A program made the position numbers and the translations under genes. Shown piece by piece: positions 8,301 through 10,902 of a stretch of 10,902 nucleotides of DNA. The stretch covers positions 1-10,902 of the forward strand of contig CAMGCA010000037.1 of the NCBI GenBank assembly GCA_946011705.1, written 5' to 3'. How positions within the stretch are numbered: the stretch's first letter is position 1; each line of letters starts with the position of its first letter. Source of the stretch: an uncultured Clostridia bacterium. GTDB taxonomy: Bacteria > Bacillota > Clostridia > Oscillospirales > Oscillospiraceae. Below the pieces are notes generated by a model. That model saw nothing but the letters and a program-made list of their open reading frames with translations. It did no database searches and had not been told where the DNA came from.

Positions 8301-10902
8301 CAAGAATCTGCCAAGGGAAATCATGTCAGAAATCCGCTTTGTAATGGCAGGCCATTTCAGTTCCACCTGCGCATAAGGGGCACCCAGACTGCCGTGGCTG
8401 AAGGACAGGCCGGCAGAGGTATAGGTCTGGTTGTCGTTCCCACCATGATAGCCGCTGTACTCGCCATGCTGCTGTTTCAGAAACCGCTCCCGCTCTTTGG
8501 TATCCGTGTTCCGACTGAAAAAGGAGAAAGTATCCAGTCGGGATTCATAGCTTCGCTCGGAGCCACGCAGAATACGGTCTATTTCATCGTCTGAAATGAA
8601 AAACCGCCGCTGTGGGGCATACCCTTCGGCGGCGGTGAAAATATGCGGTTCCCGTTGCAAATCTTCCAGCCTGCGCAGAAGTGCTATGGGGTCATACCAT
8701 CGACTTCTGAGCAAACTGCGGTCTTTTTCATAGACGGCGGCAAACAATGTCCATTCGTCTACAAGCTGGCTGAGTGTGTCACGATCTTCCAGAAGGCGCT
8801 GCATCTGGACTTCAATTTCCGGGAAACCACCCTTGGCAGAATAGGTCAGCGTGGTCAGGGGGAGATACCCGGAATCCTTGGCTTCGTCGCTGAATTCCCG
8901 TCTGGCATAAATCAGGGACTTTGCCAGCTCGATTCGCTCAAAGTCCTGCACCCGGTCAAGCTTGCTCTGGGGCATGTACCGCCCCAAATCCAGCAGCTCC
9001 CGGATGCGCTTTGCCGCCTGCTCCCATGTGACAAGGGTGGTATACCGCTTTTGGACGGTGCGCCCGGTGGCAATGCGGATGCCATCCGCATCATACCAGA
9101 TGGCGTATTCCCAATCCTGAATAAAAAGCCCCGCGCCGTTGGTGCCGTAACTCTTTTGTAGAAAAGCGGCATTTTCTTCCAGCGGCTTGTCCTTCATGAA
9201 ATAGGCGCAGATGATCAGGCGGCTGTTTCTGTCATTGAAACCGATGCAAAGGACTTCATCAATGACCTGCTGGGGGAGCTGTGGCTGGGAGAAGAAGGTC
9301 TGCTGTTCGCCCTCCTGCTCGGGTGCAAGATAACTGCCGTCCATGAAGGAAATCTGTTGGTCATCATAACTGGGCGGCAGCTCGACCCGTGTATTAAGGA
9401 AATAAGTGCCCTGCTCAATGAGATTGCCGGTCAGCTCCGCAACAATGCCCCATGAAAAAACGGACTCCTTTGCGCGGGAGAGGTATGCGCCCTCCCACAT
9501 AAGAAGTCCGTCATCTGTGGCCTTATATCCGATACGGGTGTTGTCCACGATCAATTCCGTGTATCTGTCCGGGTAGACAGATTTCAAATAATTAGCCCTT
9601 TCAATCTGGTCATAATGCTCCCGGAAGAAATTCTGTATTTCCTTTTTGGGAGATTTCAGATCATCGTCCCGGTTTTCCAGAATCGCCATAATGAATCGCT
9701 CATCCAGAAGCGGGGGCAGCTCGGAATCTATGCGTAAATCAGTTCCTGCAGAATCTGCTCCTCCGCTGCTGAGCGGAAGTTGTTCATCAGGCCCACCCAT
9801 TTCATCTGGTCGGCGGCTTTCAGTTCCTCCGTCACGCCCTCGGTCTGCGCCATCTGGCTGACGATCTGCTCCAGTCGGCTCCGGGCTGTCTCCTCGATCT
9901 CCATCAGATGAGCGTGGAGCTGCCCCGTGGTCAGAAGGTTCGTGTAGGTCACTTTCCGGCTCTGCTGCAGGAATCTGCGGCGCATCAATCCGTACTTCCC
10001 AAGGGGAATCTGGGGTTCCTGGGGCGGGAGAAGGTTCGGAAGCAGATAGTCCCCCTGCTTCGTGTATGTGATCTGTGTCATGGTTCATGCTCCTTTCTGG
10101 TTGGTTTTCAGCTACAGCATACTCTTTTTCGGCGGGTTCTTCAAATGTGCGATTTTGCTGACGCTGCAAGGACAGCACCGTTCGGGCAATTTCGGACAGG
10201 CACATCTGGGAAATGTCGCTGGTAGCCGCGCCCAGGGCGTTGAGCGTCTGCAAGGTATTGAAACCGCTGATATAGCTGAAATCCTCTGGGGTAAAATGTG
10301 CAGAAGGGTCAATACCGCAGCGCACCAAAAGCATATAGCCGATGCTGTTTTGCAGCAGTGGCTTGAAGATCGCTTCCAGCGATTCCTCATCCAGCGGCTC
10401 CAGGAAGCTGCCTTCCTTATAATAAATGAGCTGTGCCAAGTAATCCTGAAAGTTGTCCTCCATGGCATTGGAAGCTGCGGAAATCAGAGCATCGCCCAGC
10501 GTATTCGTATTGCCAAGAACGCCAAAGCTGTTTTCCAGCGTTTCCATGATTGCCTGTTCCTGCTCCGGGTGGACTGTCCAGATGGGCACAGGACGGGGAT
10601 GCCGCCCTTCATGGGTATCTGCAATGTCGAAGTAGTATTTGATTCTCGCTTGACCATTGCTGTCACTGTCCAGAATGGCAATGCCTTTGGAGCCGCGATT
10701 GACCCACCGCCCGAACCGCTGGTTCCAGCCTTGCCGCCCTTCTATGGGAAGGACTGCGGTGGCATCCGGGCGCTGGGCATACAGAAGGACCTGCTTATCA
10801 AAGGAAAGGCGAAAATTGTGGCATGCGGTGGTCAGAAACCGGGGCCACGCTTCCGGCGTTGCCACTGCTCCAGCGGTCTGCAAAGACAAATCCGTGAACC
10901 GA
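2367..10902 (-). CDS. Giant polyvalent protein: ArdC-like N-region, N6-adenine methylase and SNF2/DEAD-like helicase (N-terminus outside window)
   Basis: The frame is open at the right edge (RFTDLSLQTAGA...). The TTG at 10889 is not a convincing start because family sequence precedes it, so the true N-terminus lies beyond the window. Residue numbers here count from that TTG.

Residues 1-90 (WPRFLTTACHNFRLSF, YAQRPDATAV) are ArdC-like. Residues 270-388 are an Asp/Pro/Gly/Ser-rich disordered linker. Residues 540-666 and 765-888 are diverged copies of one domain. Residues 990-1150 hold further mobile-element-type accessory domains. Residues 1260-1480 are an N6-adenine methylase domain with ILEPSCGVGNF (E1356, SAM loop) and GNVPFG (N1420) in place of NPPY. 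Residues 2025-2590 are an SNF2-like helicase with AHEVGAGKT (K2047), DESH (2205-2208), ATGTPISNS, and QRLGRIVRQG (2533-2542). Residues 2755-2820 are a coiled coil.

Related proteins are carried by clostridial conjugative elements. A role in protecting or remodelling transferred DNA is inferred. The stop is TAA at 2367. Confidence 0.95.
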   Translation of the reverse strand, partial: RFTDLSLQTAGAVATPEAWPRFLTTACHNFRLSFDKQVLLYAQRPDATAVLPIEGRQGWNQRFGRWVNRGSKGIAILDSDSNGQARIKYYFDIADTHEGRHPRPVPIWTVHPEQEQAIMETLENSFGVLGNTNTLGDALISAASNAMEDNFQDYLAQLIYYKEGSFLEPLDEESLEAIFKPLLQNSIGYMLLVRCGIDPSAHFTPEDFSYISGFNTLQTLNALGAATSDISQMCLSEIARTVLSLQRQQNRTFEEPAEKEYAVAENQPERSMNHDTDHIHEAGGLSASEPSPAPGTPDSPWEVRIDAPQIPAAEPESDLHEPSDHGAAPRSSDGDRGDSPEPTGADRQPDGADRGRDGGTESRRPDEMGGPDEQLPLSSGGADSAGTDLRIDSELPPLLDERFIMAILENRDDDLKSPKKEIQNFFREHYDQIERANYLKSVYPDRYTELIVDNTRIGYKATDDGLLMWEGAYLSRAKESVFSWGIVAELTGNLIEQGTYFLNTRVELPPSYDDQQISFMDGSYLAPEQEGEQQTFFSQPQLPQQVIDEVLCIGFNDRNSRLIICAYFMKDKPLEENAAFLQKSYGTNGAGLFIQDWEYAIWYDADGIRIATGRTVQKRYTTLVTWEQAAKRIRELLDLGRYMPQSKLDRVQDFERIELAKSLIYARREFSDEAKDSGYLPLTTLTYSAKGGFPEIEVQMQRLLEDRDTLSQLVDEWTLFAAVYEKDRSLLRSRWYDPIALLRRLEDLQREPHIFTAAEGYAPQRRFFISDDEIDRILRGSERSYESRLDTFSFFSRNTDTKERERFLKQQHGEYSGYHGGNDNQTYTSAGLSFSHGSLGAPYAQVELKWPAITKRISDMISLGRFLYPSDAEKMADYEVKQLAKLVMNFFRDAPDEYTRPTEKSIFDYWDGVADIQGQFSDPERIREIYETMMLPLWNATLPGDRFYQERERGMEAMQAYQAGTFSVFGRDHTLRQLSGLSQPEEQPKMASNVDLDAAKELIDQFCSQEYGSEADFSDLHKVSVAYTTITDDEIPVEVYVNLIKFRLDRYIEGIIVDSRQYRSLKELTEQELVNLDFDELVSFSKEQLAKVAIYEAEILLQWDSDGEQIQTWRHSNGWFYNHYGIVDGVASSVAGPFDTLEDAKAAVLVHRPLAVEVSDTRDAEDTFGDIDPEQIRQNLAQRGIVNGEVVDPDALESDPFIQQVVADAEAAQEPAAPIPPQPKPKRERITFEPLYPEIPREQRTNFRITDPELGYGTASEKYAANVAAIRMLQRIEEVGRLATPVEQEILSRYVGWGGLADCFDEKHSKYQELKALLSEEEYAAARASSLTAFYTSPVIIQAMYQALEQMGFREGNILEPSCGVGNFIGMIPGSMAGSHAYGVELDSISGRIAQQLYQNSSIAVTGFEKVQMPDSFFDVAIGNVPFGDFKVLDKRYDKHHWLIHDYFFGKTLDKVRPGGNVAFNTTNATKEKENCTLRKYHAHRQSLIGAIRLPNTAFKRNAGTEVTSDILFLQKRDRMTDIEPDWVHLDTDANGIRMNSYFVQHPGMILGEMVMESTRFGVDSVCRADENADLSELLQGAIHNIHAQITEYQQEELEEEDNSIPADPSVRNFSYTIVDGKVYFRENSRMNPVEVSVTAENRIRGMIALRDCVRKLIDYQTEGYPDEDIQKEQAQLNTLYDDYTKKYGLLSSRGNSLAFGEDSSYFLLCSLEVLDEEGNFKRKADMFTKRTIRPHVAVTSVDTASEALAVSIAEEARVDMPFMAELSGKTEAELEVELSGVIFRDVNCAERKEEIPVAFVDLERYNFVTADEYLSGNVRRKLRMAKALQEVLPPEKKELLSSNIEALTAVQPVDLTAGEIGVRIGVNWVPKEVYEQFLYEVIGTSAYARDKIHVLYSPHSGEWNVTNKSFDGSNIKAVTTYGTKRINAYHIFEQTLNQKDVRIYDTKSDADGNEVRVLNKKETAIAQDRQELIKAKFAEWVWKDIDRRERLCGIYNETFNAIRPREYDGQHIRFSGMNPEITLRKHQINAIAHIMYGGNTLLAHEVGAGKTFEIVAAAMESKRLGLCTKSLIVVPNHITEQWSAEWLQLYPSANILVATKKDFETTNRKKFCARIATGDYDAIIIGHSQFEKIPMSKERQEIILRRQSDRSLDGIREAKRNHAENYSIKQMERTRKSLENRLAKLNDQSRKDDVVTFEQLGVDRIFVDESHFFKNLFLATKMRNVGGIAQTEAQKSSDLFMKCQYLDEITGNRGVIFATGTPISNSMVELYTIQRYLQYSTLEEMGLLNFDDWAANYGETVTAIELSPEGSGYRSKTRFAKFYNLPELMATFKMVADIQTADMLMLPVPKANFNTEVIKPSPMQRDMIKSLADRAEEIRAGHVDPSIDNMLKITNDGRKLALDMRLVNPLAPDSDTSKTSICARNVFSIWERTQEQRSAQLVFCDLSTPKGDGSFNVYDDLKQKLTEKGIPPEEIAYIHEANTEVRKKELFSKVRSGQVRVLIGSTAKMGAGTNCQDKLIALHDIDCPWRPSDLAQRLGRIVRQGNQNPEVEIFRYVTESTFDSYLYQLVENKQKFIAQIMTSKAPARIADDVDETALSYSEIKALATGNPLIIEKCNLDVEVSKLNMLKANHLNQRFALENLVLRKYPADIAKLTEAIAGYEKDVATAQAHPKPTEGFIGMEIKGTHYSEKEAAGKAVINACTELQGSDAISLGQYRGFSMSLQYDAAHTDYRLTMKGAMSHTISLGADVFGNITRMDNLVDGLAKELAEYQAALQDTHTQLANAKAEMETPFAKEAELAEKSARLKELNILLNMDQKDKALLDEAPEEDSPDKEKPRSVER
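8228..9272 (-). other. Diverged tandem domain duplication within the giant protein
   Basis: Residues 540-666 (9272-8892) and 765-888 (8597-8228) share one layout. Each opens with an acidic IDEVL / IDRIL helix. An SR-x-F segment follows (SRLIICAYFMKDK / SRLDTFSFFSRNT), then FLQKSYG / FLKQQHG, a Gly/aromatic strand block, TWEQAAKRIRELLDLGRYM / KWPAITKRISDMISLGRFL, and a closing LAKSLIYARREF / LAKLVMNFFRDA helix. Nucleotide identity is not obvious, so the duplication is old. The unit resembles helper domains of mobile-element polyvalent proteins; no enzymatic residues are apparent. Confidence 0.65.
9728..10081 (-). CDS. tnpV: TnpV-family protein, nested out of frame inside the giant gene
   Basis: 117 residues, ATG at 10081 to TAG at 9728, on the same strand as the giant gene but shifted by one base. 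The start has an excellent ribosome binding site, AGAAAGGAG, with 8 nt between GGAG and ATG (10082-10098). A nearer ATG in the host frame sits only one base after GGAG and is too close.

The product matches the TnpV family, first named in Tn4451-type mobilisable transposons and common in clostridial elements. It has the N-terminal TYTKQGDYLLPNLLPP, then PLGKYGLMRRRFLQQ (26-40), GQLHAHLMEIEETARSRLEQ (53-72), and the C-terminal block GVTEELKAADQMKWVGLMNN, then a final RSAAEEQILQELIYA. The length is that of a complete family member. TnpV has been suggested to act as an excisionase-like or regulatory factor, without firm proof as far as I know. No separate promoter is obvious, so it is probably translated from the giant gene's mRNA. 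Confidence 0.85.
   Translation of the reverse strand: MTQITYTKQGDYLLPNLLPPQEPQIPLGKYGLMRRRFLQQSRKVTYTNLLTTGQLHAHLMEIEETARSRLEQIVSQMAQTEGVTEELKAADQMKWVGLMNNFRSAAEEQILQELIYA

Follow-up and report, generated by a model that had tools for sequence, protein, structure and literature searches.

A conserved tnpV reading frame nested on the same strand within giant SNF2-helicase genes of Bacillota

Results

A tnpV gene nested in a giant gene

The 10,902-nucleotide stretch of DNA that was analyzed here (the window) very probably carries a member of a conserved, fully nested gene pair of Bacillota mobile elements, in which a giant protein and an internally initiated TnpV would be made from one mRNA transcribed from a single strand. 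We favor this explanation because homology, position, frame, selection on two frames, conservation of a Shine-Dalgarno sequence and a shared history were all observed. In this arrangement, tnpV occupies the +1 frame of a linker between the N-terminal domain and the remainder of a methylase/SNF2-helicase giant. The relevant features of the window are the following.

2367..10901, minus strand: giant host gene with an SNF2-type helicase and a methylase-like part; open reading frame, truncated on the 5' side where the contig ends
10086..10889, minus strand: N-terminal domain of the giant, 268 aa; the query used to find relatives
9726..10082, minus strand: linker (host residues 270-388), specified by the same DNA as tnpV; little amino-acid constraint in the host frame
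9728..10081, minus strand: tnpV, 117 aa plus stop, ATG start, wholly inside the giant gene in the +1 frame
10090..10096, minus strand: AAAGGAG as Shine-Dalgarno sequence of tnpV, 8 nt upstream of its ATG, as read from the sequence
10085..10087, minus strand: in-frame stop (TGA) two codons ahead of the tnpV ATG; the open frame has only 118 codons

The giant reading frame (2367-10889/10901, minus strand; 2840-2844 aa) is open beyond the end of the window, the contig of which stops inside the giant. The initial annotation had described the host as a methylase-helicase, and the helicase part of this description was borne out by Pfam (SNF2-rel_dom at residues 2039-2216 and Helicase_C at 2461-2546), while the methylase part is represented only by partial PADLOC MTase matches at residues of about 1320-1432. 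The inner reading frame matches the Pfam TnpV profile PF14198 with 151 bits (cut-off 27), the alignment of TnpV residues 5-115 covering the profile over its full length (1-111 of 111). A search of this protein against the NCBIfam profiles gave no matches, and PHROGs returned one clear family, of unknown function. The reading-frame listing agrees with these results: tnpV and the giant gene both lie on the minus strand, the inner frame is +1 relative to the host frame, and no host stop occurs across the whole inner gene, so that both frames are open throughout. The complete tnpV that had been proposed to lie within an uninterrupted giant frame is thus present, and the host-frame translation is indeed a low-complexity sequence of Asp, Pro, Gly and Arg, along with Ser. 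The structure predicted for TnpV (pLDDT 88) consists of a hairpin and helices, and a fold search with this model gave no convincing match. The excisionase fold is a winged helix.

Recurrence of the nested arrangement

A TnpV-family reading frame directly follows the N-terminal domain, in a single +1 frame, in 109 of the 113 distinct giants that were fetched with the same N-terminal domain. At the phylum level, 28 loci were fetched, among which all 19 giants contained a nested TnpV (19/19; 2 repeats and 17 new), and the same was true for 5/5 loci of the viral collection with a full match to the N-terminal domain (2 of these being alike). The overlap is far beyond chance since it was found in more than 100 other giants, and since these include the single-contig genomes G148, G152 and G042, an assembly artefact is ruled out. 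Relatives also occur on plasmid records. Seen from the side of TnpV, 48 of the 150 matches among the class-wide matches listed are nested in this way, every one of the 48 in the same frame, which does not support the earlier view that tnpV is normally free-standing. Three giants (L144, L145 and L152) are clearly without TnpV and have a much shorter linker, and a fourth (L147) seemingly lacks it too, which indicates that the giant can dispense with TnpV. A linker retained over a TnpV frame broken by stops, the pattern named beforehand as contrary to the initial annotation, was not seen; the three giants clearly without TnpV are those with the shortened linker.

The reading that only the giant is real, the TnpV-like frame being a vestige or an accident of the repetitive linker sequence, has in its favor that the host linker is open and of low complexity. 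It is nonetheless barely credible, because the Pfam model itself found the 48 nested copies among the matches listed, and 7 of 10 divergent inner reading frames that were tested exceed its cut-off. The other three, the most divergent (L177, L154 and L171), score 16-24 bits against the cut-off of 27 and were, as divergent reading frames below this cut-off, assigned through an iterated profile. The conservation of the inner Shine-Dalgarno sequence and the placement of amino-acid constraint in the TnpV frame, both described below, also stand against this reading.

Selection on the two frames

Host-frame stops are absent from 111 of the 112 nested TnpV copies, and all 29 other copies contain 1-12 of them. 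In 108 nested genes a single host stop was observed, compared to 251.5 expected by codon permutation, and codons ending in T before AA, AG or GA numbered 1/3780 in nested copies versus 165/942 in free copies. The amino-acid sequence that is conserved is that of TnpV: identity at TnpV codon positions 1, 2 and 3 is 58, 68 and 47%, and in each of the 3003 pairs identity is higher for TnpV than for the host. With a counting method applied to 23 independent close pairs, we determined the substitution rates per opportunity in each frame. Changes that are silent only in TnpV had a rate of 0.066, compared to 0.019 for those silent only in the host, and were thus 3.5 times as frequent. Selection therefore acts on both frames, on amino acids in TnpV and mainly on openness in the host. 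The proposal that the TnpV frame is the constrained one accordingly holds for amino acids. Among changes that are synonymous in TnpV, those that are non-synonymous in the host occurred at about half the rate of those synonymous in the host (0.066 versus 0.125; only 29 changes). Host identity was compared with a null that combines TnpV conservation and stop avoidance, and it exceeds this null whatever the class of TnpV identity, by a slight 0.02-0.03 in distant pairs. The host frame may therefore be under amino-acid constraint to some degree. The earlier idea of the linker as a by-product is supported, in that its sequence is for the most part one, and host identity in distant copies is nearly explained by TnpV conservation, contrary to what a real giant with a spurious inner frame would lead one to expect. 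The linker is a tolerant and probably disordered spacer, the sequence of which is set almost wholly by TnpV.

Translation signals of tnpV

Shine-Dalgarno sites similar to that of the window precede most nested tnpV copies. Of 91 nested copies, 79 have a match of at least 5 nt at the nearest ATG, compared to 263 of 4435 background ATGs. The presence of such a site before the inner ATG makes it plausible that a single transcript gives both the giant and TnpV, and judged from these sequence signals TnpV would be translated. Production of TnpV as a fusion to the N-terminal domain by programmed +1 frameshifting, instead of internal initiation, would fit with the location of TnpV next to this domain, always in the +1 frame, and with an inner frame that, in 43 of the 112 nested copies, continues without a stop for over 20 codons ahead of the ATG taken as the start. 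However, a stop or the edge of the locus lies at most 10 codons upstream of the ATG in 46 of the 112, and the TGA two codons before the tnpV ATG argues against such a fusion in the window. Moreover, the Shine-Dalgarno sequence and ATG are conserved, and free TnpV relatives mostly have a Shine-Dalgarno sequence of their own (20/27). We therefore regard frameshifting as highly improbable. Most likely, the giant would be initiated at its own start and translated across the linker, and the small, mostly helical TnpV would be initiated internally on the mRNA of the giant at its own Shine-Dalgarno sequence and ATG.

Discussion

Age and origin of the nesting

Nearly all of the fetched giants have the nested tnpV, as do 48 of the 150 TnpV matches listed, and the arrangement is thus ancient and standard. 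One particular in-frame capture, as had initially been suggested, is not supported. The nesting probably arose close to the base of the family of giants. Independent uptake of TnpV on several occasions by different giants, the linker being tolerant of inserts, would agree with the TnpV tree, in which nested and free copies are intermixed, and with the report, in the part of the source consulted, that elements inserting in the snf2 giant carry TnpV (PMC9815147). This is very unlikely in view of the identical place and frame in all nested cases examined, the agreement between TnpV and N-terminal domain distances (Mantel 0.84; 0/999 permutations as high), and the placement of TnpV-bearing giants on all sides of the N-terminal domain tree. 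TnpV may have been captured by the giant. Tentatively, the TnpV family might instead have been born by overprinting in the linker of the giant and have escaped later, perhaps several times, as free genes, although we consider this rather doubtful.

Comparison with known systems

The full-length match places the inner protein in the same family (PF14198) as the TnpV proteins of Tn4451, Tn6104 and others. In the sources consulted in part, these known tnpV genes are described and recorded as separate genes, whereas that of the window is wholly nested. For Tn4451, a role of TnpV in excision was postulated from its likeness to lambda Xis, according to the portion of that work consulted (PMC3158075). 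The snf2 product of ICESa2603-family ICEs is described as a methyltransferase with an SNF2 helicase domain, and the sections consulted mention no inner gene (PMC12942858). The window giant would share with it a homologous N-terminal domain, and it has the SNF2 helicase part. CP138365 (S. agalactiae strain R31-snf2-MTast1; L177), which by its strain name and accession would belong to the ICESa2603-type work, has the same N-terminal domain (25.4% identity over 86% of the domain, E 1e-8, tblastn) and a TnpV-like inner reading frame in the same frame, which has diverged strongly (15.9 bits against the Pfam TnpV profile). Two proteins in different frames are likewise obtained from one stretch in viral overprinting and in other nested bacterial genes, E. 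coli pop within ompA being an example, as far as the consulted parts of these reports go (PMC7103648, PMC8227390). Pop is antisense, whereas the window pair is on the same strand; its inner protein is a member of a known family, and the pair recurs across Bacillota families.

Implications

TnpV may assist transfer or maintenance as an accessory factor that works in partnership with the giant, and co-encoding would couple the two in inheritance and dosage. To our knowledge, long same-strand nested genes that are conserved over large evolutionary distances have rarely been documented in bacteria. Here, the nesting in nearly all related Bacillota giants examined indicates that two protein-coding frames have been maintained in the same DNA for a long time, and since the inner protein is in a known family the nested pair can be tested at once. 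Annotation of the pair is uneven: the gene tables of six named records, which are stated to be incomplete, list TnpV but no giant in L173, TnpV and an SNF2 gene starting downstream of it in L174, the giant only in L176, L219 and L222, and neither in L177. The second protein carried by a widespread class of mobile-element giants thus tends to be overlooked in records, and the more than 100 natural pairs form a series in which the accommodation of two codes in a single sequence can be measured. If TnpV was indeed born in the linker, the free tnpV genes that now lie beside resistance genes on many plasmids would be escapees.

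The window's tnpV gene and its Shine-Dalgarno sequence

The initial annotation had described a 117-codon TnpV frame inside the open frame of a methylase-helicase gene (the giant, or host), and this was borne out. The inner ORF has both an ATG and a stop codon and gave a full match of 151 bits to the TnpV profile (PF14198), and the host frame is unbroken across the whole of tnpV. The host ORF, also on the minus strand, spans at least 2,840 codons and extends past the window end; it encodes SNF2-related and Helicase_C domains, while its methylase matches were only partial (PADLOC).

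Features of the nested gene (the second and third read from the sequence)
9728-10081, minus strand: tnpV ORF, in the +1 frame relative to the host
8 nt upstream of the tnpV ATG, minus strand: Shine-Dalgarno sequence AAAGGAG
two codons upstream of the tnpV ATG, minus strand: TGA in the inner frame

Across copies, the start was taken as the first ATG met going upstream from the profile match, blind to Shine-Dalgarno sequences. A properly spaced Shine-Dalgarno sequence of at least 5 nt preceded 79 of 91 nested copies (those with the giant's N-terminal domain, or N-domain, upstream; one of the 91 lacked an ATG) and 20 of 27 free copies (those without it), against 263 of 4435 background ATGs, which were taken from other places in the same giants and from frames other than the host's.

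Nearly all giants examined carry TnpV in the same frame

When the N-terminal part of the giant (662 residues) was searched against public genomes, nine loci encoded a relative (identity 32-98%), all nine with TnpV in the same frame and zero host stops. The window's genome holds three further, more divergent giants (contigs C132, C203 and C207), each with a nested gene, a fourth N-domain truncated at the end of contig C220, where no TnpV was seen, and five additional TnpV matches with no adjoining N-domain found. To catch giants with and without TnpV alike, we then used the N-domain alone, which matched 88 of 391 genomes of the class, 21 of 101 of the family and 22 of 398 of the phylum; 7 plasmid and 16 phage records were also taken in. 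One class of matches is a short protein in which the N-domain is split and TnpV is missing; loci L025, L100-L103 and L107-L112 encode such proteins, with the N-domain in two pieces and no nested TnpV seen.

TnpV (a same-strand profile match above 40 bits within 400 nt after the N-domain) was present in 109 of 113 distinct giants among loci up to L177 whose N-domains scored at least 100 bits, started by model position 60 and reached 200; this filter excludes some partial N-domains with TnpV (L015, L106, L149-L151) and others without a clear TnpV, either cut at contig ends (L022, L148) or fragmentary (L099, L104). The frame relation to the host was identical in every nested case. Of the four giants without TnpV, three (L144, L145, L152) have a short linker (in the window, host residues 270-388, encoded by the tnpV DNA) and an inner frame full of stops; in the fourth (L147) just 216 nt remain after the N-domain. 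Of the 28 phylum-level loci fetched, 19 hold giants, each with TnpV in the same frame and zero host stops; L197 and L201 among them repeat earlier loci, and there are at least three more strong matches beyond the 28. The remaining nine lack TnpV and contain fragments or encode short N-domain proteins; two of them score high enough to clear the 100-bit filter, L205 (open frame of 476 codons) and L209 (296 codons). A viral collection contained 13 TnpV-encoding loci with a full N-domain directly upstream in five (L178 and L190 being similar) and one more with a partial match at a contig edge; host-frame stops numbered zero in these six and 2-6 in the other seven. A class-wide Pfam search found TnpV in 76 of 196 genomes and in 0 of 14 control genomes, and 48 of the 150 matches listed had the N-domain directly upstream, all in one frame.

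Gene tables of named records, stated to be incomplete for plasmids so that absence is only suggestive, list TnpV but no giant in Cohnella herbarum NZ_CP051681; TnpV and an SNF2 gene that starts downstream of it in Monoglobus NZ_OY725736; the giant but no TnpV in Virgibacillus NZ_CP033047, Streptococcus suis NZ_CP135064 and Anaerococcus prevotii NC_013164; and neither in S. agalactiae CP138365. Free TnpV is also plasmid-borne, including outside Bacillota: Streptococcus gallolyticus pSGG1 (L220) and Klebsiella pneumoniae pD610-HI2 (L221) have it annotated as a separate gene near resistance genes (mosaic tet(O) type; aac(6')-aph(2'')).

The host frame is kept open and the linker is mostly a by-product

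Nested status was assigned from the upstream N-domain, stops playing no part in the definition. Zero host-frame stops were found in 111 of 112 distinct nested copies, the exception (L071) having a giant frame of only 292 codons, whereas all 29 non-nested copies, mostly top-scoring matches and hence a non-random sample, had 1-12 stops in the equivalent frame. With synonymous codons permuted within each gene, 251.5 stops were expected in 108 nested genes and one was seen; for 28 free genes about 163 were seen against 199 expected. T-ending codons made up 1 of 3780 codons before AA, AG or GA in nested genes (1140 of 8105 elsewhere), against 165 of 942 in free genes (556 of 2195 elsewhere). Because of this stop deficit and codon avoidance, we conclude that the host frame is actively maintained open.

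The frame constrained in its amino acids is that of TnpV, as the initial annotation had proposed. Among 78 strong nested copies, identity at inner codon positions 1/2/3 was 58/68/47%, and TnpV identity exceeded host identity in 3003 of 3003 pairs (means 0.47 and 0.29). In 23 independent close pairs, differences at these positions numbered 263/202/492. Counted per opportunity, with transitions weighted 2 by assumption, changes silent in TnpV that alter the host occurred at a rate of 0.066, against 0.019 for the reverse, 0.125 for changes silent in both frames and 0.026 for those altering both; in 21 of these 23 pairs the upstream host flank gave 0.080 (synonymous) and 0.030 (nonsynonymous). As a null, synonymous codons were also redrawn so that TnpV stayed unchanged and no host stop arose.

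Host identity under this null and as observed
TnpV identity 0.3-0.4: 0.206 and 0.223
TnpV identity 0.4-0.5: 0.254 and 0.273
TnpV identity 0.5-0.6: 0.296 and 0.330

Distant pairs thus lie only slightly above the null; closer pairs lie well above it, as shared descent would lead one to expect. Since the excess in distant pairs is so slight, the linker sequence is mostly a by-product, largely as had been proposed.

History of the association

TnpV and N-domain distances were concordant (103 nested copies; Mantel 0.84, highest of 999 permutations 0.17). Because TnpV-bearing giants lie on all sides of the N-domain tree and TnpV-less ones inside it, two of them on long branches, the simplest reading of this tree, whose deep branches are weakly supported, would be that TnpV dates back to the base of the giants, or close to it, and was later lost in some. 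In the TnpV tree, free copies fall within nested ones, but a reduced set remained compatible with a single split (p-AU 0.144). One free copy (L044, genome G072) groups with nested copies, and its host-equivalent frame is still linker-like with three stops, no N-domain being found upstream; it may represent a recent escape from a giant.

The region after tnpV and the role of TnpV

About 110 giant residues directly after tnpV (host ~393-504) are present in the window, L009 and L010 and missing from the close relatives L011, L012, L013 and L015. A pentapeptide resembling the sliding-clamp-binding motif, whose consensus is given as QL[S/D]LF in the part of PMC12309361 consulted, occurs in the host frame of 28 of 101 giants, no more than 45 codons past the stop of TnpV (shuffling predicts 0.2), examples just after tnpV being L050, L082, L092 and L136; in L050 the last codon and stop of TnpV overlap the DNA for its first residues. 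It was absent from 73 of the 101, including the window's giant (125 codons searched), and present in the three TnpV-less giants with enough sequence (L144, L145, L152).

A fold model of TnpV (a hairpin plus helices) found no convincing match when compared for similar folds. A role in excision has been postulated for TnpV of Tn4451, according to the portion of PMC3158075 consulted. Our working view is that TnpV would be produced together with the giant and act as an accessory factor when the element is transferred or maintained.
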